In this document: positions 3,693 through 30,163 of the stretch, piece by piece | Position numbering within the stretch: the first letter of the stretch is position 1 | Layout of the letters: every line of letters begins with the position of its first letter | DNA from: a virus | DNA: 31,015 nt | Virus record (IMG/VR): IMGVR_UViG_3300046009_008727 | Location: 1 to 31,015 of that record | Direction: 5' to 3' (one strand) | Position numbers and translations under genes: made by a program | The notes under the pieces: model-generated | What the model saw: the letters and a program-made list of their open reading frames with translations, nothing else | Database searches by the model: none | Told to the model about the DNA's origin: nothing

Positions 3693-4673
3693 TTATTGGG
3701 TATTTATGAAATTAGCTAGCTCCGGAAACGTCCGTATCCAGTTGGTTTTTCTGCGACTATCGCACTGGTTTAAAAATTCTATTATTTGAGGCAAGCGCAA
3801 ATTAGCACCTTCTAAGGAAAATAATCCAGTTGCAGCTTGTTGTCTGTGTTCGATAGGGTCTGTTACTCTATTGGAGTGGAAATTTGATTTGAGCCAGGCA
3901 TTAATATTTTCTAAGTTGAAATAATTTAACACTCCAACTGTAGTATTAACTGCAAACATGCAATTTACTGGGCAATTGTCAACGTACCACTTTAAATTGG
4001 AACTAACAGATTCCCAATTGGCTGGATATCTTTGGTACTCGAATCTCTCGCCAATATCATCAATACTAAAATCTAACAGAACCAATTTAAATTGAGCCCA
4101 CAGATCTAATAACTCTTGATTAGGTATTATTGTACCATTTGTATTGTAGTTTATTTGCACTTCGTGTTTTTGTTCTATTGCTTTTAGAAATTCAACATGC
4201 TCCTTACTTAGTAAAGGTTCTCCCCCATTAAAATGTATAAATTTTAATTTACTAATATCAATATTTGTCCAAAATTTATTAACTACCTGAGGTTTATTTT
4301 TTATTTCCAATTCTTGCTTCCACGCACTGCTGTTATGCGGGCCGCAAATTACACAAGCCAGGTTACAAGTGTCTCCGGTCCAATAATCAATTCTAATTAA
4401 CTCTGTGTCTAGATTGTCGTATCCATTATCTTTATACCATTGATTGCTTCCCATACGCCTACTAGGTAAATTATTTTGTTCTGTTTTGTTACATTCAGAA
4501 CACTCAGAAGGAAACTCATTTTGTAACCAAATTTTTCTAATTTTATCTAAGTAAGCATCATTGATATCTATGGTGTTAACTATTTTTGTTGGTGATATAC
4601 AGCACGGGGATATTCTTAGATTATTATCCCGAATCTCTATATTAATATTCTTAAACGAATCAATACATTTCAT
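3693..4673 (-). CDS. Radical SAM protein 1 with N-terminal CxxC (326 aa)
   Basis: C103-x3-C107-x2-C110 (CNLACVIC) is the radical-SAM [4Fe-4S] motif, followed by GPHNSSAW and the SAM-binding GGEP at 150-153. N-terminal cysteines C24-C25 (PCC) and C58-x2-C61 could bind an auxiliary cluster, as in twitch/SPASM-type enzymes, although here they precede the core. Such enzymes cleave SAM reductively to a 5'-deoxyadenosyl radical. The substrate here is unknown. The protein shares FEYQRYP and a C-terminal FPELANF with the proteins at 4751-5794 and 8991-10391. It stands divergent to the former with a 77-bp gap. No precursor peptide is obvious nearby. Confidence 0.85.
   Translation of the reverse strand: MKCIDSFKNINIEIRDNNLRISPCCISPTKIVNTIDINDAYLDKIRKIWLQNEFPSECSECNKTEQNNLPSRRMGSNQWYKDNGYDNLDTELIRIDYWTGDTCNLACVICGPHNSSAWKQELEIKNKPQVVNKFWTNIDISKLKFIHFNGGEPLLSKEHVEFLKAIEQKHEVQINYNTNGTIIPNQELLDLWAQFKLVLLDFSIDDIGERFEYQRYPANWESVSSNLKWYVDNCPVNCMFAVNTTVGVLNYFNLENINAWLKSNFHSNRVTDPIEHRQQAATGLFSLEGANLRLPQIIEFLNQCDSRRKTNWIRTFPELANFINTQ
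3701..3708 (-). promoter_or_regulatory. T4-type late promoter box (one mismatch)
   Basis: The minus strand reads CATAAATA, inside the last codons of radical SAM protein 1. It would start a short leader carrying the GGAG site of the TTG-initiated 82-aa gene. Confidence 0.5.
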
Positions 4674-4750: not shown

Positions 4751-5794
4751 ATGATGAATGATTATTTTTGTGTTTTGCCTTTTTTTGGAGCAGAATACCG
4801 CCATCAGGAAGAATTCACTCCATGTTGCTTACTTGATTTGTCTAAACAAACAATCGAATCTGTTAGAGAGGAAATGCTCAAAAAAAAGAGGCCAGAAGCT
4901 TGTAAAAAATGTTGGAGACTGGAGGACATTGGGCACGAAAGTGATCGTCAAATTAAAAATAAATCATTTGATTTTTATAGTGACACAGATATTAACATTA
5001 TTGAAAAAAATTGCACTGAACAGAAATTTAGCAAGAAAATAATTAAAATATATACATCAAATCTGTGTAACAGCACTTGTTTTACCTGCGGACCTACAAA
5101 TAGCACTGCCTGGAACGCATTAGAAAAAAAACAAATTCCTTTAACAAAAATAAACAAATCACAATTAGATTTTGATTATGCCAATATTACTATGTTGTCT
5201 TTTGTTGGCGGAGAACCGTTGTACGAAAAAACTAATTTTGAGATTTTAAACGAACTACTTAATCACAATAATAATAGTTGTTTTATATCATTTGTTACAA
5301 ACGGATCAGTACCTCTTACTGATGACCAAATTAACATTTTATCAAAATTTAAAAATTTAAACATTTGTTTGAGTATCGACGGTATAGAATCAAGATTTGA
5401 ATACATGCGATTTCCTTTACAATGGGATAATCTACTTTCAAATATTAAATTATTTCAAGATCTTGGTATAAACATTAGTGCCAGTTATACTATCAGTAAT
5501 TTAAATTTATTTTATTACTCCGAAACAGTCAATTGGTTCAAAGAACAATGTATCCCGCACAATCATATTCTGGTTAGTTCTCCATTATATTTGAACCCTG
5601 GCAATCTAAATGAAAAACAAAAAACAAAAATATTAGAAAATAACTTAACTCACGTCAATAGTATTAAAGAATTTTTAAACAGCGGAACGTATTCTGATAT
5701 GCTTTATACTCAATTTATTCAAGAAGTTCAGAGACAAGATCTATTAAAAAAAATTAATATTAATGATTATATGCCAGAATTAAAAATATTTTAA
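4751..5794 (+). CDS. Radical SAM protein 2 with N-terminal CxxC (347 aa)
   Basis: This is one of only two plus-strand genes in the window. C106-x3-C110-x2-C113 (CNSTCFTC) is the [4Fe-4S]/SAM motif, followed by GPTNSTAW; GGEP is at 153-156. As in its paralogues there are N-terminal cysteines, PCC (C25-C26) and C51-x2-C54 (CKKC). FEYMRFP in the second half matches FEYQRYP of radical SAM protein 1. The gene is very AT-rich (the 60 bases at 5221-5280 hold 14 G+C) and ends flush against the convergent helicase gene. It therefore looks like an inserted cassette. I see no ribosome site or clear promoter. The start could be the second ATG (4754). Substrate unknown. Confidence 0.85.
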   Translation: MMNDYFCVLPFFGAEYRHQEEFTPCCLLDLSKQTIESVREEMLKKKRPEACKKCWRLEDIGHESDRQIKNKSFDFYSDTDINIIEKNCTEQKFSKKIIKIYTSNLCNSTCFTCGPTNSTAWNALEKKQIPLTKINKSQLDFDYANITMLSFVGGEPLYEKTNFEILNELLNHNNNSCFISFVTNGSVPLTDDQINILSKFKNLNICLSIDGIESRFEYMRFPLQWDNLLSNIKLFQDLGINISASYTISNLNLFYYSETVNWFKEQCIPHNHILVSSPLYLNPGNLNEKQKTKILENNLTHVNSIKEFLNSGTYSDMLYTQFIQEVQRQDLLKKININDYMPELKIF

Positions 5795-7222
5795 TTATTC
5801 GGTTTTAGTTTTTAGACTTGCAAGCATTTGCTTGAGTTTTGTACTGTCAACACTGGCTTGTACAGGTTTATCCATTTCATACCCCGGTTTAGGTTTAGCT
5901 GCAATCATAGGGCTGCTTGTTGAAGCTGTAGTTTTGATTTGATCCATAATCTGATTGCTAGTACGGAAGCCCTGGCCACCATTTTCACTTTGTGCATCTT
6001 CGCCAGGGTCAGTGATACGTAGGCTTTCAATATTGAACTCAAGATCAACTTTTTGTCCTACTCCTGAACTACTACGAGTTTTCATTAACTGTATCTGATA
6101 CCTACCGCGCTCACGCATGTTACGACTTGTAAAGATACCAAACACATTATCTGCTGTGTTAATTTTACTAATACCGCCCGAGATATGACTGTGATCAAAT
6201 TCAATTTCTTCAACAGCCGATCTGTTCAACTGCGAAGCAGTAATCATCAGTATGTTGAATTCTCTGGCCAAATTACGTAATTCTTCTGAAACATACTTGT
6301 CTTTAACAAACAAATCACTAGGGCTAACTTTTGCACTAACCGGCATAACAAGATCAAGATAATCAACCATGATAAAGTCTGTTTTCTGACCTGTCTGTAT
6401 TTCTAGTTCTTTGAGATAGGCACGAATATGATTCACATTGCTTTGTGCTGGCATGTACTTGATACGCAATTTACCCGACTTTTTGCCTACCATGCGTATC
6501 TTCATTTCCAGTGTGTCTAAATCCCGAAAGATTTCTTTTGTGCTACAGTTTGCAACCATCGCATCCATACGCATTGCACACAACTCTTCACTAAGCTCAA
6601 GTGTAAGGAAAACACCGTTAAGTCCGGCAGTGATCCAGTTAATAGCAATGTTCTGCATAAACAAACTTTTGCCCGAGCCCGAGCCGCCAGCAAAGATGTT
6701 TAGTTCTCCTCTGTTCATGCCGCCGAACAATCGTTGATCCATAGTAGGCCAGCCTGTGCTTACTTGACCATTGTTTGATTTGATCTTCATCAATCTAGCA
6801 CGAGGATCATCAAAATAGTCTGTGCCCATGTCTTTGGTAAGACTGATTTGAACAGCATCTTTGATCAATTTTTCAACAGGATCAAAATCTCCATTCTCGA
6901 TCATATCTGCTGCTTTTAGAATTGCACGTTCTAATTCTTGTTTACGACTAAACCCTTCGAACTCTTCTAAGAACCAGTCATAGTGGCCTTCTCTTAGTTC
7001 CGGAACTTCTCTTAATTCTATGCTAGTAGCAGCTTGTATCTGTTCTCTGGTAGGCAATGTCTTATGGTCATCGCTGTGTTTCTTAATAAACTTCGCAGCT
7101 TCTCTCAGACTGCGATCAAAGTTTTCTGCATTATAAATGTTCTGCACACGCACGTATGTTTCTGCGTCTTGCAGCATCATTTCTAAAAATAGTTTTTGTA
7201 CTTCTGTATTATAATCTTTCAT
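5795..7222 (-). CDS. 41: T4 gp41-like replicative DNA helicase
   Basis: This is a DnaB/gp41-family hexameric helicase of 475 aa. The N-terminal domain (about 1-130) is followed by a RecA-type core with Walker A GGSGSGKS (179-186), a Walker B-like FIMVDYLD with D287 and D290, and an SQLNRS segment after it (sensor-like glutamine). The C-terminal ~70 residues form a low-complexity Ser/Thr/Pro/Lys-rich tail. Its start overlaps the primase stop (ATGA), so helicase and primase are translationally coupled, as suits the T4 gp41/gp61 primosome working on the lagging strand. Its stop abuts the end of the convergent radical-SAM gene. Confidence 0.93.
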   Translation of the reverse strand: MKDYNTEVQKLFLEMMLQDAETYVRVQNIYNAENFDRSLREAAKFIKKHSDDHKTLPTREQIQAATSIELREVPELREGHYDWFLEEFEGFSRKQELERAILKAADMIENGDFDPVEKLIKDAVQISLTKDMGTDYFDDPRARLMKIKSNNGQVSTGWPTMDQRLFGGMNRGELNIFAGGSGSGKSLFMQNIAINWITAGLNGVFLTLELSEELCAMRMDAMVANCSTKEIFRDLDTLEMKIRMVGKKSGKLRIKYMPAQSNVNHIRAYLKELEIQTGQKTDFIMVDYLDLVMPVSAKVSPSDLFVKDKYVSEELRNLAREFNILMITASQLNRSAVEEIEFDHSHISGGISKINTADNVFGIFTSRNMRERGRYQIQLMKTRSSSGVGQKVDLEFNIESLRITDPGEDAQSENGGQGFRTSNQIMDQIKTTASTSSPMIAAKPKPGYEMDKPVQASVDSTKLKQMLASLKTKTE

Positions 7223-8250
7223 AGTGTACTATATAGTTTTTTCTTTTTAAGTTCAATTTTAAGTCGACTTGATTCTTTACCAGCAAGTATACTTTTTATA
7301 ACAAATAATTTTCCATAGTTGACAACAGCTTCATTTATGTCCTTGCAATTTTCTTGCCATACCGGAAAGCTAACAGTCCATCCTGCTTCAATGGCACGGT
7401 CAATTAATTTACGTCCTGCACGATCTCTGTCGGGTACAACAATAACCTCACGTTGCAATCTATCAATTTGATCAACCTGTATGTCAGATACTTCCGATCC
7501 ACTCAGTGCAACACCATCTACACTCATTGCATCAAATGGTCCTTCACAAACAATTACAAATTTCCAATTTGATTGTTGCTGATCTAAATTAAACACGAAA
7601 TCTGCAGGATGACTTGACCAGTATTTTGGTTTTATTCCATTTACTATTGATCTACTGGTATAGCCCACTATTTCATTTTTGTAGTAATAGGGAATAACGA
7701 TTCTGCGATGTAGGTTATATGCCTCTTCCGGCGTCCAGTAGAATTTGTATTTGTCTAAATCAATTGATCTACGATGAACATATTCTATTGCTGCTAGTAA
7801 TTCAGCGGGTACATTGTTGTAATCACCTATGTTATAAAAATTAGCAAGTTCGACAATGTTTTTTGCATGATCTGGCAGTGATCTTGCATCATATTTTATT
7901 TCTTCATCTGGTTCTTTGGCTAATTCTTCTGGATCAATTATTTCTCGTAATCTTACAGCTTCGATTACTAATCTCCGAACAGTTAAATCATCAGCTCCTA
8001 ACCACGATAAAAGTTTTCTAAATTTAAAACTTAAATGTCTACCTGGTATAAAACTTGCTTTGTAACCACAGTTAAAACAATGGTAGGAAATTTGTCCATT
8101 ATTGGTTTTTATGCCACCACGACCTCTTGTGTCAGCAGTTTCTCCATTATGTGAACAACAAACTGCGTTAAAACTCGTCCAACCGTTTTGACCAGTTTTT
8201 CGACGAACAGGAAGTAACTGGTTAACAGCTTGTTGAATAGAGTCTAACAT
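7219..8250 (-). CDS. 61: T4 gp61-like DNA primase
   Basis: The N-terminal zinc-binding domain has C31, C32, H34, C58 and C61 (VCCSHNG ... YHCFNCGY). The TOPRIM catalytic domain has E236 (VCEGPFDA) and D274/D276 (VPDRDRAG), the metal-binding residues of DnaG-type primases. The protein makes RNA primers for lagging-strand synthesis together with the gp41-type helicase encoded immediately downstream with an ATGA overlap. The length (343 aa) equals that of T4 gp61. The ATG at 8250 has no ribosome site. A TTGATA-17-TAAAAT promoter ends six bases before it, so the messenger may be leaderless. The basic C-terminus (LKIELKKKKLYSTL) is AT-rich. Confidence 0.93.
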   Translation of the reverse strand: MLDSIQQAVNQLLPVRRKTGQNGWTSFNAVCCSHNGETADTRGRGGIKTNNGQISYHCFNCGYKASFIPGRHLSFKFRKLLSWLGADDLTVRRLVIEAVRLREIIDPEELAKEPDEEIKYDARSLPDHAKNIVELANFYNIGDYNNVPAELLAAIEYVHRRSIDLDKYKFYWTPEEAYNLHRRIVIPYYYKNEIVGYTSRSIVNGIKPKYWSSHPADFVFNLDQQQSNWKFVIVCEGPFDAMSVDGVALSGSEVSDIQVDQIDRLQREVIVVPDRDRAGRKLIDRAIEAGWTVSFPVWQENCKDINEAVVNYGKLFVIKSILAGKESSRLKIELKKKKLYSTL

Positions 8251-8285: not shown

Positions 8286-8994
8286 ATTTGTTATAATCAA
8301 TATTAATTACCGAATCTACTATTTTATCGTAGCTATCAATTACTTGTTCTATTTCAGATTTAAAGATTTCTGCGTTTTTATCATTTATGTGCCCAACTCT
8401 ACCACAGGTCAAAGGCATTATTCCTGGACTGTTAGTTTCTTTGTTTGATAACGTTTCAAAGGCAAAGTCTAATAAAACGCCTTTTGAAAAATGCTTCAAC
8501 GCAATGTCTTTTGATAATTCAGTGTTTGGTATAAAAATAAATTTTATATCAGGGTATAACTCGGGCAAATTCAAAACTTTTTCAATTAATAATTCATGCA
8601 CATAGCAGCAAAATTCGTGGCTGTAAATATGATCGAAGTATAGTTTTGTTGCAAGTTCTATGTCATCTACTTTGAGTTCATTCTTTAAATTTTCGATTTT
8701 ACGTTTTTCTGCTACTGAAAAAAATACTTCTTGATTAGTTTCGTTATTATGATAAATCCTATTTTCCCAAGTAAAGGTCCATATGGCAATGTCAATTAAA
8801 TTAGTGTTTGATTGAATAAATTTGTTCCATTTATCTATAGCATGATATTGACTGGATCCACTTACACCAGAATTTACTGCTTTCCAATTATTGTCTTCGA
8901 TAAGTCTTCTTGACCATGGTTTCCACTCTCTTGGTGTTTCGTCAAACTTCCAATGAAGGTCAATATAACTATCTCCAAAAAAGCCTATGTTCAT
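8269..8994 (-). CDS. SGNH/GDSL-type hydrolase-like protein (241 aa)
   Basis: The protein opens MNIGFFGDSYID, which is block I of SGNH hydrolases with the candidate nucleophile S9. NSGVSGSSQY near residue 45 fits the block II glycine. TFTWENR near residue 95 may take the block III position, and RVGHINDKNAEIF near the C-terminus supplies a candidate catalytic His. SGNH enzymes are esterases, lipases or O-acetyl hydrolases. No signal peptide is visible, so action inside the cell or on the virion is more likely than secretion. The start overlaps the stop of radical SAM protein 3 (ATGA), linking the two in one operon. The substrate is unknown, and a non-catalytic role is possible. Confidence 0.7.
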   Translation of the reverse strand: MNIGFFGDSYIDLHWKFDETPREWKPWSRRLIEDNNWKAVNSGVSGSSQYHAIDKWNKFIQSNTNLIDIAIWTFTWENRIYHNNETNQEVFFSVAEKRKIENLKNELKVDDIELATKLYFDHIYSHEFCCYVHELLIEKVLNLPELYPDIKFIFIPNTELSKDIALKHFSKGVLLDFAFETLSNKETNSPGIMPLTCGRVGHINDKNAEIFKSEIEQVIDSYDKIVDSVINIDYNKFDIQN

Positions 8995-10391
8995 AATGAA
9001 TTGTACCAGTCTGCCAGTCTTGGAAAAGTCTCTACAAAATTTTTATTACGCCGTTTATCATATTGTACAAAAAAGCTTTTAAAATCTCTCGCTAATTCAT
9101 CAACATCAAAAACCTTATGGCTTTTATCATAGTCATCTTCATTTTTGAAACTTTTCTCTTCTTCCTTGTGCGGCACTTCTGCTTCTCTTACATATTTGAT
9201 AAATCTTTCGATGTTTACTAAATCATACTCAGCAAACCATTTATAATTATTTTGGTCGTCCATATATGATTGTAATTCGTTAGCATACTGTTCTCTTAGA
9301 TTTTTAGGTAGAATAATTAAACTCTGAAAGGTAGGAAATCTTACCGGTGTAATACTGAATCTAATTCTTTCTTTGTCATTTACTGAGACTTTTTGTTCTT
9401 TAACCCAATTTAAATAATCTAAAAATCCATCTACTGCCTGTGCATTGACTGTGCCCATTATGAACAATGGTTCAAGTCTTTTACTATTTTTTGCCAATTC
9501 AAAGTTGGTAACAAAATTTTCCCATATTAAACCGTCCCTTATGTATTCGCCTTTTTCTTTATAGGCTTCTCCGCTGGTAATTATTTCAAACTTGTAAGGA
9601 ATTTTTTCTATTTTGTCTAAAAACTTGTGCATCAAGGACGGATCATATCCTAAGTTACTACAAATACTAATTTTAGTATTTTCATTGGCACGGAATTTTC
9701 CTGACTCTAACATTCCTAAAAAGTCCCACAAGTAACCACTCATGAAGGGTTCACCACCGGTAATTTTAAGAGTTTTTACTGAATCAGCTAATCCTTGTTC
9801 CCACCATTTAAAAAAAGCATTTATATATGGATTGTTGGACCCATAGTCGAATCCATCTTCGTCGTATCCTAAATGTACAAAATGTTCTCTTACGTCGGTA
9901 GGTAATCTAACATAAGGTCCATTATTTTTTAAATCTTTTACCCAAGTTGTACTTGCACCTGGCCAACAATAACTACAGGCCATTTGACATGTTCTGTCAA
10001 ATGCAATTTCAAGATAATCTGGATTTATATCTTGATCCCACGGTGTATTAAATGCACGTTGTAAATCATCATCTGTTGAATGTTTACTAAGCCATACTCT
10101 ATCTCCAAGATTATCAGGATGTAGTTCTTCGTAAGTCCAACAATATTGACAATTCAAAGGCTTTTTGCCTTCTTGCATCATTTTACGTTCTTGTTTTTTA
10201 ACTTCTGTATTGTGTAAGGCGCTAGGATTGCGTTCTAATTCTTCTAACGGTATTTGGTGTCCTGGGTTGTGATGACAACTTGCAGTACGACCCGATCTTA
10301 ACCAAACAGTAGAGTTATACCATTTTGCCCCGCAAAAACTTGCACTTTTCGTGTCTAATACACGACGTTTCCAATCTTCGATTTTTTCCAT
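8991..10391 (-). CDS. Radical SAM protein 3 with N-terminal CxxC (466 aa)
   Basis: C135-x3-C139-x2-C142 (CQMACSYC) is the radical-SAM cluster motif, followed by WPGASTTW; TGGEP is at 211-215. C39 and C81-x2-C84 (NCQYCW) repeat the N-terminal cysteine layout of the other two radical-SAM proteins of the window. It is the largest of the three, with about 100 extra residues. These include an acidic/lysine-rich stretch before the C-terminal ETFPRLADWYNSL, which matches the FPELANF end of protein 1. The gene is coupled to the SGNH gene downstream by an ATGA overlap and lies just downstream of the desaturase gene. I recall this family in marine T4-like phages. No substrate is known to me. Confidence 0.85.
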   Translation of the reverse strand: MEKIEDWKRRVLDTKSASFCGAKWYNSTVWLRSGRTASCHHNPGHQIPLEELERNPSALHNTEVKKQERKMMQEGKKPLNCQYCWTYEELHPDNLGDRVWLSKHSTDDDLQRAFNTPWDQDINPDYLEIAFDRTCQMACSYCWPGASTTWVKDLKNNGPYVRLPTDVREHFVHLGYDEDGFDYGSNNPYINAFFKWWEQGLADSVKTLKITGGEPFMSGYLWDFLGMLESGKFRANENTKISICSNLGYDPSLMHKFLDKIEKIPYKFEIITSGEAYKEKGEYIRDGLIWENFVTNFELAKNSKRLEPLFIMGTVNAQAVDGFLDYLNWVKEQKVSVNDKERIRFSITPVRFPTFQSLIILPKNLREQYANELQSYMDDQNNYKWFAEYDLVNIERFIKYVREAEVPHKEEEKSFKNEDDYDKSHKVFDVDELARDFKSFFVQYDKRRNKNFVETFPRLADWYNSL

Positions 10392-10407: not shown

Positions 10408-11124
10408 TTATTTAACTTTTGCTAATTTAATTGATTGTAAAACTTGAATGTAGAACCAACCAATATCAAATTCAAACCAACGCCTACTAAACTTTGGATT
10501 GGCTGGATCTAAATGATGATTGTTGTGCAGTTCTTCTCCGCCAATATAAAAGGCTATAGGGGTGAGGTTTCTAGATTGGTCTGCAGTTTCTCCATTGCGA
10601 TAACCCCACCAGTGTGCCAGTCCATTTATAATACCGGCTGCGTGGAAAGGTATCCATATCATTTGCACCAACCATATTAGTACGCCTGCCCAACCAAATA
10701 AAATCGCATTTAAGGCCAACATAATCATAAAACCTAGGTTATGATGTCTGGTATAAAAAAGTTCTAGTTGATCTTTTGGTGTTCCGGCACCATACTTGAT
10801 AACAAAGTTTGGATCTTTGGTGGCTTCATGATATAGACTCCATCCGCCAAATATCAAGCGCCATATTCCAAACACATGAGGACTGTGTGGATCACCTTCT
10901 ACATCAGTGCTTTGATGATGTTTGCGATGCACTGCTACCCAGGCTTTAGTGGTCATGCCAGTTGTGAGCCAAACCCAAAAGCGAAAGAAGTGATTAAGAG
11001 CAGGATGAAACTCTACTCCTCTATGTGCTTGTGATCTATGAAGGTATAGTGTAACGCTGACAATAGTGATGTGAGTGAGTAGGAGGGCGATCACCAGACC
11101 CTGCCAAAAGGAAATGTCTATCAT
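10408..11124 (-). CDS. Membrane fatty-acid desaturase (delta-9/acyl-CoA type)
   Basis: The three histidine boxes of the membrane di-iron desaturases are complete: H29-x4-H34 (HRSQAH), H66-x2-H69-H70 (HRKHH) and H200-x2-H203-H204 (HNNHH), with an extra H171 in GLAHWWG. Hydrophobic stretches lie at about 9-28, 43-57, 131-150 and 150-170. The family inserts a double bond in acyl chains using O2 and electrons from an external donor. At 238 aa it is shorter than typical bacterial enzymes (around 300 aa) and has no fused cytochrome b5 or ferredoxin, so it would need the host's electron supply. It probably alters host membrane lipids during infection. It sits 7 bp downstream of the 2-oxoglutarate oxygenase gene. 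Confidence 0.9.
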   Translation of the reverse strand: MIDISFWQGLVIALLLTHITIVSVTLYLHRSQAHRGVEFHPALNHFFRFWVWLTTGMTTKAWVAVHRKHHQSTDVEGDPHSPHVFGIWRLIFGGWSLYHEATKDPNFVIKYGAGTPKDQLELFYTRHHNLGFMIMLALNAILFGWAGVLIWLVQMIWIPFHAAGIINGLAHWWGYRNGETADQSRNLTPIAFYIGGEELHNNHHLDPANPKFSRRWFEFDIGWFYIQVLQSIKLAKVK

Positions 11125-11131
11125 GCTGTAT

Positions 11132-11581
11132 TTACTTTAAATTAAAGGCTACACTTATTCTATAATCAGTACTGCGATTGGGTAAAACTCTGTGTGCTAG
11201 ATTGCCGGCAAACTGTATAAAATCTTCAGCGGCAGGATAGAACACTTGGTATTCTTCGTGGCGTCTAAACTCTATGCCACCTGAGTTTTCAGGCGTTTGT
11301 ACATACAGCACAGCAGAATGAGTATATGGACTGTGACTGTGCCAACGATATTCGTCACCGGGTTCACCACAGTTGAACCACCACTGATCTATGCGTAATG
11401 GTGCTACTGCTGTGGCCACACGATCAAATGTTGGTTGAAACCAGGTATAAGGATTGTCTCTCATTCTAGCCCCGTGCCAGGTGCCCAATGCTCCGCCACG
11501 TCCGTGATCTAGTTCTCGGAATAACCGTACAACTTCTTGAGCCACAACAGGATCCACAGCTATCCTACCCTGAGTGAACAT
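11132..11581 (-). CDS. 2-oxoglutarate/Fe(II)-dependent oxygenase-like protein (149 aa)
   Basis: The double-stranded beta-helix signature of phage 2OG-Fe(II) oxygenases is visible: WHSHSPYTHSAVLYV (H81, H83), then FYPAAEDFIQF, then H130 in LAHRVLPN as the distal iron ligand, and R141 in DYRISVAFN as the 2-oxoglutarate-binding Arg. Such enzymes hydroxylate proteins, nucleic acids or small molecules. T4-like marine phages often carry several of unknown substrate. The ATG overlaps the stop of the LamG-like fibre gene (TAATG), so it is translated together with the tail-fibre genes. That suggests, but does not prove, a role in modifying a fibre or virion protein. Confidence 0.82.
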   Translation of the reverse strand: MFTQGRIAVDPVVAQEVVRLFRELDHGRGGALGTWHGARMRDNPYTWFQPTFDRVATAVAPLRIDQWWFNCGEPGDEYRWHSHSPYTHSAVLYVQTPENSGGIEFRRHEEYQVFYPAAEDFIQFAGNLAHRVLPNRSTDYRISVAFNLK

Positions 11582-21337: not shown

Positions 21338-21715
21338 ATGGTTGAACACAACTACGAAGAGTTATTAAATTCCTATCCTTTCTTAACATATTTGATTTAT
21401 GGTGGGAATGAGTATATTGGAGTGATACAAAATCTTGACGAAATTATTACAACGATATACGACTACGGTGCGTTAAAAACTGTGGAGCAGAAGCGTCAGT
21501 TTTTAGAACTAGCAGAAACTTGGTGGTGGGAAAGCAATAGGTTGATACCTATTAATGTGTTTTTAAAAGAGGATTGGACACCGTTCCGTAGTGTTGTCAA
21601 GACCATGAACAGCAAAGATGTGGAAATCAAGTTTGGCCCGCAAGTGAGCCTAAAAGAAATTGCTGCCAAACGCAGCAAAAGAAGAAGTATTACTCTTGTT
21701 CGGAAGCTTGGCTAA
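21338..21715 (+). CDS. Conserved phage protein of unknown function (125 aa)
   Basis: This plus-strand gene begins MVEHNYEELLNSYPFLTYLIYGGNEYIG. It contains ETWWWESNRLIPINVFLKEDW and ends with a very basic KRSKRRSITLVRKLG. I recall the same pattern in a conserved hypothetical family of T4-like cyanophages; no function is known to me. The basic tail could contact nucleic acid. It is divergent from the tail-fibre operon and converges with the DnaE-like gene, overlapping its 3' end by 26 bases. No ribosome site is visible before the ATG. Confidence 0.75.
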   Translation: MVEHNYEELLNSYPFLTYLIYGGNEYIGVIQNLDEIITTIYDYGALKTVEQKRQFLELAETWWWESNRLIPINVFLKEDWTPFRSVVKTMNSKDVEIKFGPQVSLKEIAAKRSKRRSITLVRKLG

Positions 21716-22277
21716 GTAGGTTCATATGCACCATTACAAGTCTCGAATATGCACAACTATGAGACTTTTTGAACGCATAACTTCCATCCTCGGGTTTGTT
21801 CCATATAGTTTTTGCTACTTCTTTCCAGGGTAATCCTATTAGATGTCTCTTTGCAGGTCTTATAATAGCCAAGAACATCATAAGTCTTGTATCTGAATTC
21901 ACTGCTTCGGGCATTCGAATTAGCGTATCGTAATGTGCGCCTATATGAATCAATTTTGCACAAAACTCTGGGTCATACAGTCTATCCCATTCAGGTTCCT
22001 GATTCATTAACTCCTGTAAGTGTTGTTCTGACTTTACTCGCTGATATAACCCTACATTTAAAATATCTACTTTGATGTATCCTAGCTCTTCTGCTTGTTG
22101 ATAATCAAAGCTGGCTTGGCCAGTAAAAGGGTCTTGTGGTATCTCTGTAAAATACACACCTGTGTTATGTTTTGTTATTTTACCGTCACGAATGATACTC
22201 GCAGCAGTATGTTTTACTACAGCAAGAGCTTGATCTCTATTTGCTACATCAATATCAATATCGCTTGAGAATTTCAT
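21690..22277 (-). CDS. Miniature DnaE-like (C-family DNA polymerase palm-like) protein (195 aa)
   Basis: Motifs of the bacterial polymerase III alpha subunit occur in the right order: SSDIDIDVANRDQ (4-16; compare PDFDVDF..KRDQ, with D8 and D10 at the two catalytic Asp positions), KHNTGVYF (36-43; compare KHAGGVVI), SFDYQQAEELGYIKVDILNVG (56-76, split here by the K69/D71 pair; compare QFD...E..GLVKFDFLGL, D71 at the third catalytic Asp), FLAIIRPAKRHLIG (135-148; compare ALFRPGPL) and FKKSHSCAYS (169-178; compare FNKSHSAAY). At 195 aa it is a fraction of DnaE's usual ~1,000-1,200 aa. I recall uncharacterised homologues in T4-like marine phages. Its ATG overlaps the zinc-finger gene's stop. Polymerase activity is unproven. 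Confidence 0.75.
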   Translation of the reverse strand: MKFSSDIDIDVANRDQALAVVKHTAASIIRDGKITKHNTGVYFTEIPQDPFTGQASFDYQQAEELGYIKVDILNVGLYQRVKSEQHLQELMNQEPEWDRLYDPEFCAKLIHIGAHYDTLIRMPEAVNSDTRLMMFLAIIRPAKRHLIGLPWKEVAKTIWNKPEDGSYAFKKSHSCAYSRLVMVHMNLLSQASEQE

Positions 22278-22981
22278 AGCCCTGCCTCTCCAAGAACGTG
22301 TTTACACCACTCTACATCTGCCACAAAATCCTTGAACTTACGATTCCAGTAATCAGGATCAATCCAAGAAATAATAATGGCCAAATGTTCCTGGTTAATA
22401 GACTCCAAAAACTGTACACCGCTATTGCAGTTGTATATAACCCAAGGGCTAATGCGACCAGTGGTAATGTGATAACAAATCCTATTATGATTGCCGTACT
22501 TGAAATAATGGCTATAATCAGCAAGGCCACTATCTCCATTGGCATACTCTTCCATGGTTTGTAGTCCTCGCTCAAGTGCGTCTTGGACAGCTTCTTTTTT
22601 AATATATTCACTTAACCATTCTTCATAAAAACTGTCACGACACCAATGATCAATTTTTTTATTATTCTTTAATAGCCAAGCTGTGTAGCTGTTGCTATTA
22701 ATACAGCGAATATCAACCATGTATCTACCGAACTTAGTAAAAGCTGTATAGTACGGACTTGTAACGAAATCATTGTAGCTTTTAAGCTTTGAACTGCCTT
22801 GTGTAGTTTCATAGAATTGTAGATATGCTCTAAGTCCAAACTGTACCCCCGTTTCTGATTCTTGCTGCCAACGACGCTTGGGTTCACAAAGGTGAGCAGC
22901 TAGAGTGCTTTCCTTTCTGAACAGTCGCTCACAGTATTTACATTTATAGCTCTGATTTAATTCTTCTGTCATCCCAACCAT
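22274..22981 (-). CDS. Zinc-finger protein coupled to the DnaE-like gene (235 aa)
   Basis: C14-x2-C17-x12-H30-x-C32 (CKYCERLFRKESTLAAHLC) forms an N-terminal C2HC-type zinc finger with the F and L hydrophobic positions of a DNA-binding finger. The rest has no motif I can name. Conserved-looking segments include SYNDFVTSPYYTAFTKFGRY, WLSEYIKKEA and WIDPDYWNRKFKDF. The start may be the ATG at 22981 or at 22972; both lie inside the end of the preceding gene. Its stop overlaps the start of the DnaE-like gene (ATGA). The two proteins are probably made in fixed ratio and may act together, with the finger supplying DNA binding; that is inference. Confidence 0.75.
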   Translation of the reverse strand: MVGMTEELNQSYKCKYCERLFRKESTLAAHLCEPKRRWQQESETGVQFGLRAYLQFYETTQGSSKLKSYNDFVTSPYYTAFTKFGRYMVDIRCINSNSYTAWLLKNNKKIDHWCRDSFYEEWLSEYIKKEAVQDALERGLQTMEEYANGDSGLADYSHYFKYGNHNRICYHITTGRISPWVIYNCNSGVQFLESINQEHLAIIISWIDPDYWNRKFKDFVADVEWCKHVLGEAGL

Positions 22982-24170: not shown

Positions 24171-24369
24171 TTTGATCTCCTTGCCATTTCATTAAAAACA
24201 TTGTTAGTTCTGCATCGTCTTTGAAACTTATGGCATTGATGCTTACCTGTTTGCCACAGCCGGTCTGCCAACACCATTTGCCATAGGTGTTAAAATGTCG
24301 CATGGCTTCAAGATCTATAGGTCTTACCCATTTAATACCATCGCCGCGATCTTCAATCGTAAAATTCAT
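24166..24369 (-). CDS. Conserved small protein (67 aa)
   Basis: The product begins MNFTIEDRGDGIKWVRPIDLEAMRHF and contains two cysteines in WCWQTGCGKQ. It could bind a metal, but there is no full finger. The ATG at 24369 overlaps the TGA of uvsW (ATGA); a GTG two codons upstream is also possible. No function is recognised. Its position directly after uvsW in an overlapping operon suggests a helper in recombination or replication. Confidence 0.65.
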   Translation of the reverse strand: MNFTIEDRGDGIKWVRPIDLEAMRHFNTYGKWCWQTGCGKQVSINAISFKDDAELTMFLMKWQGDQN

Positions 24370-25820
24370 TGCCACTCTGCTTTCTCTACCGTAAATGGAT
24401 AGTTGGCTTCTTTGTAAAAAGTTTTACGTTTTGTTAAATGTCTTTTTGCGAACTTGCAAGTAGATGTTATGTCCCAGATTTGAACAAAATCTTTGTCTTC
24501 AGCTTTGCGAATACCTCGCCCAATTGACTGAATAACTCGGACAAAAGACTTACCAGGCTCAAGGAGAACAAGATTAAAAATGCGGGGAATATTAATACCA
24601 ACAGCAGCAACACCGTAGGTAGCGATAATGATTTTGTCTGAAGCTTCTGCCACTTCGTCATAGTGTTCTTTGCGCTCCCCGGCTTTGGTTGCTCCCGACA
24701 CAAACACACTACCTGGTAATCTTTCTGCTAAAGCCTTACCGGCACTTATCCGATCTACCAATATAAGTGTATTGCCCGAATCAACAATAGTACTTATCAG
24801 CCTAGCAATATAATCCAATCTTTCCTTGGTTTCAATCAGATATTTTAACTCGCTTTGATAGTTGGTGTATTCTTTATGATCAACCAACTGCACTACATTC
24901 ACATGACATTGTGCCAAGTGCCCAGCTTCTTGTAGTTCACTGGCACTTAATTGTCCTACTACTGGACCAAGCATACAATTAATACTTTGTCTAGCATAAT
25001 CTTCTTTGGGTATAGTGCCAGTCAATCCCCAACGGATAGGCACTTGTGCAAATGGACCGCTGAGTAGTGTCTTGAGGGCATCCGCTTTGGCTTGATGCAC
25101 TTCGTCTACAATAACTGCTACTACACCTTCCAAGAACTCGCCTATAGTAATTTCAGCTTCGGCGTTCTTGGTAGTCTTTAGCAAGTTGTTGAGACTTTGC
25201 CAAGTGCAAATAGTATGTGTGCGTCCATATTCTTTTCTATCGCCAAAATATACACCTGCATCCAAATCTAAATTAACAAAATCATCTTCAGTTTGTGTTA
25301 CTAGACTTTTGTTGGGTACGATTACAATTGTGCGACCATATTCGCTAACAGCATCGGCCAGTGCGGCTGTGATAATTGTTTTACCTGCACCTGTTGCCAC
25401 TTCTTGTACGCACTGTGGATTAGCTAGAAAACGATTGATGATTTCTGGTTGATAATCTCTAAGTATAATAGGCTCACCGGCTTTGGGATGATTACGAGGC
25501 CATTTTTTATGCTGATATGTATTCTCGTCCACCTGAGCAAACTCAAATGAAGTACGATAACCTCTGGTGTCTTGTATCTCGATATCGTAGCCCTGTTCAT
25601 CTAGATAGGGCAATATTTCAGGAAGCAAATTGATATAAGTAGTACCACCAAGGTTAAAAAATGGAACCTTGCCGTCCCATCGGCCCAGTCTTACACTAGG
25701 CTGATATCTAGCACCTGGTATTTCATATTTGTACTTTTTAACCAGAGCGGTACGGGTATTAAGTTCGAGACCTTCGATCTTGACATTAACTTCGTCTTTG
25801 ATTAATAACTTAGCCTGCAT
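24366..25820 (-). CDS. uvsW: UvsW-like DNA/RNA helicase
   Basis: This SF2 helicase of 484 aa has an N-terminal UvsW-type domain (about 1-110, with RLGRWDGKVPFF), a Q-motif-like LRDYQPEII (120-127), Walker A ATGAGKT (142-148), DEVH (239-242), an LTGT motif III, and motif VI QSIGRGIRK near residue 435. In T4, UvsW unwinds branched DNA and R-loops and helps switch from origin- to recombination-dependent replication. The start overlaps the upstream stop (TAATG), and the stop overlaps the next start (ATGA). It is the second gene of an operon from the promoter at 26990-27018. The length is close to T4 UvsW (about 500 aa). Confidence 0.95.
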   Translation of the reverse strand: MQAKLLIKDEVNVKIEGLELNTRTALVKKYKYEIPGARYQPSVRLGRWDGKVPFFNLGGTTYINLLPEILPYLDEQGYDIEIQDTRGYRTSFEFAQVDENTYQHKKWPRNHPKAGEPIILRDYQPEIINRFLANPQCVQEVATGAGKTIITAALADAVSEYGRTIVIVPNKSLVTQTEDDFVNLDLDAGVYFGDRKEYGRTHTICTWQSLNNLLKTTKNAEAEITIGEFLEGVVAVIVDEVHQAKADALKTLLSGPFAQVPIRWGLTGTIPKEDYARQSINCMLGPVVGQLSASELQEAGHLAQCHVNVVQLVDHKEYTNYQSELKYLIETKERLDYIARLISTIVDSGNTLILVDRISAGKALAERLPGSVFVSGATKAGERKEHYDEVAEASDKIIIATYGVAAVGINIPRIFNLVLLEPGKSFVRVIQSIGRGIRKAEDKDFVQIWDITSTCKFAKRHLTKRKTFYKEANYPFTVEKAEWQ

Positions 25821-28967: not shown

Positions 28968-28996
28968 ATTATACAACAGCCGTAGAATTAAAACAA
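28968..28996 (-). promoter_or_regulatory. Sigma70 promoter of the 87-aa membrane protein gene
   Basis: The minus strand shows TTGTTT (28991-28996), a 17-base spacer and TATAAT (28968-28973). The predicted start of transcription lies on or within the ATG at 28962. Confidence 0.65.
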
Positions 28997-30163
28997 TGCC
29001 TGATTACGCCAATATTCACTGGCCGCTGCTACACCGCTGCCTGGTTCCACTTGTATGCCCGAATCTAACATGGCCATTTCGGCTCCAGCAATAGCAGCCA
29101 TTAGGTGAACTTCGTTCATGTCGCCCAAGTGTCCAATGCGGAATAGTTTTCCTGCGACCTTTGATAATCCTGCACCCAGTGATAAGTTATATCTCTTATA
29201 TGCTCTTGCAATTACATCCGCACCATTGATACCATCCGGCACCATGATAGCTGATACTGTATCTGAATACCATTCAGGACTTTTTGCACAAAGTTCTAGA
29301 TTCCAACCTTGTTGTACTGCGGCTCTGACGCCGCTGGCCAAATAATGGTGACGACGGATAATGTTATCAAGACCTTCTTCCTCAATCATCTTGAGTGATT
29401 CGATCAAGCCGTACAACAAACTCAATGCCGGGGTGTAAGGATAGTAGCCTGTGTTATTACTTGCAAACATGACATCAAGATCAAAATAACTTCTTTTCAG
29501 CTTGGCTGTATGCCTCAATTCTAATGCTTTCATACTTGCACACAGAATACCTAGTCCGGCGGGCAGCATTAGACCTTTTTGTGATCCTGATACTGCCATG
29601 TCAATCTTCCATTCATCAAATCTTAGATCAATACTGGCTAGACTTGATACACAATCTACAAATAACAAAGCAGGATGATTGACGGCATCAAGAACACTAC
29701 GCACACCAGCTACATCCGAGGTTACACCTGTAGCAGTTTCATTGTGACAAACTAAAACAGCCTTGATATTGCGATCCGTATCTGCTGCCAATCTTTCACG
29801 GTAGATATCTAAAGGAACACCAGTACCCCATTCGCAATCTACAATGTCTACTTCTAGGCCAAGCTTTTGACACATGTCAATCCATAAGTGACTGAACTGT
29901 CCAAATCTCGCCGCTAGTACACGGTCTCCAGGTGATAGTGTGTTGGTAAGTGCTGCTTCCCAACAGCCGGTGCCCGAACTTGGAAAAACAAAAGGTATTC
30001 CATTGGTAGCACGAAATACCCGTTTCAATCCTAGGGTAATTTGTTTTGTAATATTTGGGAAGTCCGGGCTTCTATGATCTTCCTGTGATACAACCATAGC
30101 CCTAAGTACACGATCTGGAACATTAGTGGGTCCAGGCACAAATAAAAAATTCCGTCCAGCCAT
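28988..30163 (-). CDS. Serine-glyoxylate aminotransferase (class V, PLP-dependent)
   Basis: This is a full-length class V aminotransferase of 391 aa. It has the N-terminal FVPGPTNVP (8-16), SSGTG (62-66) for PLP phosphate binding, HNETATGVTSD (140-150), D170 in LLFVDCVSS, the PLP lysine K196 in SGSQKGLMLPAG, and the C-terminal RIGHLGDMNE. These match bacterial serine-glyoxylate/alanine-glyoxylate aminotransferases, which convert serine + glyoxylate to hydroxypyruvate + glycine. No truncation or missing key residue is seen. It is a metabolic gene in a phage genome, behind its own strong promoter (30181-30209) and ribosome site AGGAGG. It probably redirects host glyoxylate, glycine and serine flow early in infection. 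Confidence 0.92.
   Translation of the reverse strand: MAGRNFLFVPGPTNVPDRVLRAMVVSQEDHRSPDFPNITKQITLGLKRVFRATNGIPFVFPSSGTGCWEAALTNTLSPGDRVLAARFGQFSHLWIDMCQKLGLEVDIVDCEWGTGVPLDIYRERLAADTDRNIKAVLVCHNETATGVTSDVAGVRSVLDAVNHPALLFVDCVSSLASIDLRFDEWKIDMAVSGSQKGLMLPAGLGILCASMKALELRHTAKLKRSYFDLDVMFASNNTGYYPYTPALSLLYGLIESLKMIEEEGLDNIIRRHHYLASGVRAAVQQGWNLELCAKSPEWYSDTVSAIMVPDGINGADVIARAYKRYNLSLGAGLSKVAGKLFRIGHLGDMNEVHLMAAIAGAEMAMLDSGIQVEPGSGVAAASEYWRNQALF

Follow-up and report, generated by a model that had tools for sequence, protein, structure and literature searches.

An uncultivated phage with a probable C-terminal part of a two-gene, minimal DNA polymerase III alpha

The 195-residue protein and its genomic setting

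The window analysed here is the whole 31,015-nucleotide stretch of IMG/VR record IMGVR_UViG_3300046009_008727, a fragment of an uncultivated phage genome. An open reading frame on its minus strand, a strand that the original prediction had not given, begins with ATG at 22277 and stops at 21692-21690; it is a real gene encoding a protein of 195 aa, which we assign with high confidence as the C-terminal half of a DNA polymerase III alpha (DnaE) core that is divided between two genes. The two parts are called the C-half and the N-half below. The features considered are as follows.

21690..22277, minus strand: assigned C-half of the two-gene minimal DNA polymerase III alpha, 195 aa, phrog_11778
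22248..22262, minus strand: predicted first catalytic motif, codons D6-I-D8-I-D10, aligned with E. coli D401, D403 and D405, invariant in 20/20 relatives
22155..22172, minus strand: KHNTGV, codons K36-V41, matching E. coli K510-H511..G514
22065..22073, minus strand: predicted second catalytic motif, codons K69-V70-D71, aligned with E. coli K553 and D555
21849..21866, minus strand: IIRPAK, codons I138-K143, matching E. coli R639-P640, where the fingers begin
21747..21773, minus strand: predicted fingers motif FKKSHSCAY, codons F169-Y177, aligned with E. coli F756..Y764
22274..22981, minus strand: zinc-finger, all-helical protein, phrog_11058, 235 aa, upstream of the C-half with a 4-base overlap
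21338..21715, plus strand: phrog_11637 gene, convergent with the C-half gene and sharing bases with its 3' end
24366..25820, minus strand: UvsW-like helicase, within the replication gene cluster of the C-half
7219..8250, minus strand: DnaG-like primase
5795..7222, minus strand: DnaB/gp41-like replicative helicase

All five DnaE signatures that the original prediction had picked out by eye are present in the protein, namely SDIDIDV (5-11), KHNTGV (36-41), KVDILNVG (69-76), IIRPAK (138-143) and FKKSHSCAYS (169-178), and on comparison of sequences these DnaE-like motifs go beyond chance. Profile comparison with C-family polymerases, which had been proposed as a check, gave a divided answer. The protein belongs to phrog_11778, annotated ‘DNA polymerase’ (PHROG profile search, E 4e-61), and the phage DnaE profile phrog_405 matches it around the NKSH motif (E 3e-8), whereas the Pfam DNA_pol3_alpha profile (PF07733) stayed below its cut-off (13.5 bits vs 23.9, E 0.057). 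The C-half of phage XacN1 does clear the cut-off of PF17657 (22.2 vs 22), and when the PDB was searched by sequence, with the window C-half by itself or with the profile of its family, no match was significant.

The T4-type replication setting, with UvsW, a DnaG-like primase and a DnaB helicase, is found in the window, and the gene order (UvsW, small proteins, phrog_11058, C-half, convergent small gene, primase, DnaB helicase) is that of the isolates; a convergent gene at the 3' side of the C-half recurs in most related phages. It had been expected that such a phage would possess its own B-family polymerase, and one is indeed carried by 14 of the 16 related records. At the eight of these loci that were read, motif A (DxxSLYPS/T) is present in all eight, and six of them also show motif C (YGDTDS or YADTDS). 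The split enzyme therefore adds to the T4-type replicase instead of replacing it. No B-family polymerase was recognised inside the 31-kb window, itself only a fragment.

The gene directly upstream, phrog_11058, is present in 15 of the 16 related phages, where it often adjoins the C-half, and in 61 phage records, which are nearly the same set as those with the split polymerase. Such a shared distribution is to be expected of any core gene in the clade, and does not in itself make the protein a subunit. Its product joins a zinc finger (C-x2-C ... H-x-C) to an all-helical domain of 200 aa (model pLDDT 89.7); a hidden thumb or clamp-binding domain was considered, and comparison of the model with the PDB gave no convincing match. 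We regard it as a candidate replisome accessory protein.

Several other genes of the window were recorded in passing. Three radical-SAM-type proteins with matches to phrog_14086 (3693-4673, minus; 4751-5794, plus; 8991-10391, minus) are encoded within 7 kb of one another and of the primase-helicase pair. At 10408-11124 (minus) lies a membrane fatty-acid desaturase-like gene that matches the functionally unannotated phrog_35201, with histidine boxes HRSQAH, HRKHH and HNNHH seen by eye, and it is adjoined by a 2OG-Fe(II) oxygenase-like gene (11132-11581, minus; phrog_81). A 391-aa protein at 28988-30163 (minus) resembles class V aminotransferases by eye, with a weak PHROG match.

Homology to the second half of the DnaE core

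The C-half is homologous to the second half only of the DnaE polymerase core, approximately E. coli residues 396-784. An AlphaFold model computed with 36 window-like sequences was confident (pLDDT 92.7, pTM 0.81), and the top six Foldseek matches to it were all bacterial Pol III alpha, at modest E-values (best 0.008). Superposition on DnaE had been proposed as a check; with VIA-align, 189-190 of the protein's 195 residues could be aligned to DnaE chains (E. coli 397-784) with an rmsd of ~4 A. The best seven entries, one of which aligns 176 residues, had Z-scores of 7.0-9.4, and values of 7-9 are little above the background for unmatched models; ranks 1-9 were all C-family (DnaE or PolC, Z 6.2-9.4), and the next, unrelated row stood at 3.8. 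The model thus predicts a palm/fingers fold in the C-half, limited to its second half, and the view of the protein as a reduced C-family homologue with a catalytic aspartate motif is upheld by it.

In a joint alignment of E. coli DnaE with phage DnaE proteins, D6, D8 and D10 of the C-half correspond to D401, D403 and D405, while K69 pairs with K553, D71 with D555, R140 with R639, H173 with H760 and Y177 with Y764. The metal ligands of the C-family are D401, D403 and D555 in E. coli numbering and are absolutely conserved across the family (PMC3919608). By this alignment the metal-binding aspartates of the C-half are predicted to be D6, D8 and D71, a placement that draws on the sequence comparison together with the fold match. 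The original prediction had named D8, D10 and D71. Given the alignment and the known ligands, D8 and D71 appear correct, but the D8/D10 pair sits one step late, with D6 and not D10 as the third ligand.

Across 20 of 20 diverse C-half relatives, down to about 31% identity, D6, D8, D10, H37, G40, K69, D71, R140, P141, H173 and Y177 are identical; in E. coli numbers the invariant positions include D401, D403, D405, H511, K553, D555, R639, H760 and Y764. This constancy bears on the proposal that the protein is a DnaE copy with a regulatory or decoy function in place of catalysis, rivalling host Pol III for partners, for example. The loss of the thumb, clamp-binding and OB domains would suit such a role, as would a metagenomic homologue (L055:1996-2580) in which K69 and D71 are replaced (YMTLALLHV vs YIKVDILNV) and which possibly represents an inactive protein or a sequencing error. 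However, among phages at ~31-50% identity no positions vary less than the catalytic residues of the two halves, and the regions by which DnaE contacts host partners, beta-binding and tau-binding, are precisely the parts that are missing. We found no specific support for a decoy and consider this explanation unlikely.

The N-terminal half and its co-occurrence with the C-half

To our knowledge, every C-family palm contains the GRGS helix, which holds the triphosphate of the dNTP. The GRGS motif is absent from the 195-aa protein, and the idea that this protein is a complete minimal palm accordingly finds no support. A phrog_405 search of 16 related phage genomes recovered a second small DnaE-like ORF in all 16, and it is this distant, separate gene that supplies the motif in 16/16. 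The N-half (phrog_11127) has 161-182 aa (~170), contains GRGS and includes the sequence NNIVWGVGRGSSVASYVLYLIGVHKVNS. N-halves pass the Pfam DNA_pol3_alpha cut-off (35.1 and 34.4 bits vs 23.9), and their invariant residues are R324, E328, G359, G361, R362, G363, S364 and S368 in E. coli numbers. The N-half ends at approximately E. coli residue 393 and the C-half begins at approximately 396, so that the two adjoin without overlap.

These data also bear on whether the 195-aa protein could be a self-sufficient minimal polymerase, as its three predicted catalytic aspartates and its confident fold when modelled alone might suggest; with the GRGS half of the palm missing from it and separately encoded in every related genome tested, we consider this very unlikely.

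A distance of about 11 kb or more separates the N-half gene from the C-half gene. Replication genes surround both halves in related phages, and in PBECO4 the N-half is near a clamp-loader gene. No N-half was found in the 31-kb window, which is an incomplete fragment, and the partner of this particular C-half is for that reason one that we infer from its relatives.

Of 50,697 phage records, 63 contain a relative of the C-half; each of these is a jumbo or large T4-like phage or a fragment of one, and the window protein is 33-49% identical to those of isolates. The N-half is likewise present in 63 records, and at least 61 have both. One 109-kb fragment (PP728206) has the C-half with no N-half listed. 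The sole genome with the N-half only is a 359-kb contig (G007, L118), in which a search for the DnaB helicase and zinc-finger genes, both from the region that usually holds the C-half, gave no match to either; the contig is therefore probably incomplete. Evolutionary distances of the two halves correlate at 0.88, a value that is uninformative by itself with shared phylogeny uncontrolled. A further 84 stretches in IMG/VR encode a C-half relative, and GTDB genomes contain 13 C-half loci (L144-L156) on contigs of MAGs or uncultured bins with highly diverse labels (Verrucomicrobia, Natrialbaceae, Pelagibacter and others); most likely these are jumbo-phage contigs co-binned with hosts. That both parts are truncated and set apart could recall a bacterial dnaE once captured and now decaying, yet at least 61 records, and many metagenomic contigs besides, carry the ORFs intact and with invariant catalytic residues, making decay extremely unlikely.

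A phage-specific ‘split, minimal Pol III alpha’ has been described in group 2.2 jumbo phages by Iyer et al. 2021, Viruses (PMC7824862), as an NTP-binding protein and a Mg/template-binding protein whose genes are distant, with a family B polymerase also present; one-strand synthesis or repair was the role proposed (PMC7824862). The window C-half is the Mg/template-binding protein of that enzyme in a further, uncultivated phage. The group includes RaK2, K64-1, PBECO4, GAP32, PA5oct, Atu_ph07 and XacN1 (phrog_11127 + phrog_11778), with which the window shares the C-terminal protein, its gene surroundings (UvsW, DnaG-like primase, DnaB helicase) and the kind of phage. Unlike these isolates, the window belongs to an uncultivated phage whose N-terminal gene and B-family polymerase would lie outside the 31 kb. 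The split form is thus already published; what we add is the breakpoint at codon level, the conservation of residues, the co-occurrence, a confident model and the near-total loss of the thumb. In the open-access literature, with subscription journals and preprints outside our scope, we found no experiment on the split enzyme and no later treatment of it, and a search for expression data on its genes returned none.

Full-length phage DnaE proteins (phrog_405), such as those of Streptomyces phage Faust and Pseudomonas phage JG024, are C-family enzymes that share motifs with the C-half, but in those phages that were read each is a single chain, 965-1123 aa long. Microbacterium phage Krampus (L133, genes 56 and 57) also has a C-family polymerase in two genes; unlike the split described here, these are adjacent and the break falls between the PHP part and the palm, which stays intact. 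The same breakpoint was looked for in other phages and rejected, JG024, RHph_X66, Bas100 and Faust being single-chain and Krampus split elsewhere.

Lost domains and proposed working of the split enzyme

Like bacterial DnaE, as represented by E. coli Pol III alpha, the C-half has the second half of the palm and the start of the fingers, with counterparts of D401, D403, D555, K553, H511, R639, H760 and Y764. Unlike E. coli DnaE it is one sixth as long, with the palm in two genes and a thumb that is nearly absent: using domain borders that we took from general knowledge of the structure, only 10 of 78 thumb positions align when N-half and C-half are combined. The PHP, beta-binding, OB and C-terminal regions are lacking altogether, and the fingers are mostly lost after their first part. 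The original prediction had listed PHP, OB and most of the fingers as gone, together with the tau-binding region, and each of these is indeed missing. The (HhH)2 domain is also absent, with no HHH_6 profile match in 12 related records while controls were positive. The possibility that the genomes encode yet another piece of DnaE was considered and rejected, as searches with phrog_405, PF17657 and PF14579 gave no further consistent part.

An active site kept while nearly all of the thumb and a large part of the fingers have gone could also point to a two-chain nucleotidyltransferase that performs no templated DNA synthesis, acting instead in end addition or nucleotide signalling. Conversely, the FKKSHxxxY fingers motif and the R-P motif are conserved as in templated C-family enzymes, and the gene neighbours are a primase, a helicase and UvsW. 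Terminal transfer, which had been among the roles first suggested, gained no specific support, and we judge a non-templated enzyme to be distinctly unlikely.

We consider it likely that the 195-aa protein is the C-half of a two-gene minimal Pol III alpha whose halves form one two-metal accessory polymerase. In this model, the C-half would contribute the aspartates D6, D8 and D71 as well as the beginning of the fingers, and the N-half would contribute the GRGS helix, the two binding non-covalently to create, from about 370 residues, a single two-metal site for nucleotidyl transfer. Non-covalent binding is the most likely form of association because neither half carries an intein. It seems reasonably likely that an active enzyme is assembled in this manner. 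The data show the homology, the breakpoint, residue conservation, co-occurrence and the replication setting, from which assembly, catalysis and role are inferred. With its thumb, PHP, (HhH)2, clamp-binding, OB and C-terminal domains gone, such an enzyme would probably be weakly processive, and would be likely to serve as an accessory polymerase (in gap filling, repair or primer extension) alongside an intact B-family replicase; the choice of any single biological role for it is doubtful. The extreme loss of the thumb leaves the grip on the template-primer unexplained by a two-half enzyme. More tentatively, it is possible that two unlinked genes give rise to the smallest C-family DNA polymerase, of ~370 residues, almost thumbless and without a clamp-binding domain, with palm halves joined non-covalently, which would be active as a second polymerase beside the B-family replicase and might grip DNA via replisome proteins such as phrog_11058.

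The C-family polymerases that replicate all bacteria are, as far as we know, of around 1,000 residues or larger. A natural form of ~370 residues, divided within the palm, shows what the catalytic core can do without, and prompts one to ask why phages already equipped with a full T4-type replicase retain a bacterial-type polymerase as a second one. As the halves are small and standalone, their activity, the exchange of subunits and their role are directly testable.

A minor observation concerns the C-half of Pseudomonas phage Cassandra (L083:4995-5594), which ends in a tail, ...EPDPFKLFS, that resembles a short sliding-clamp-binding peptide; most relatives have no such tail.
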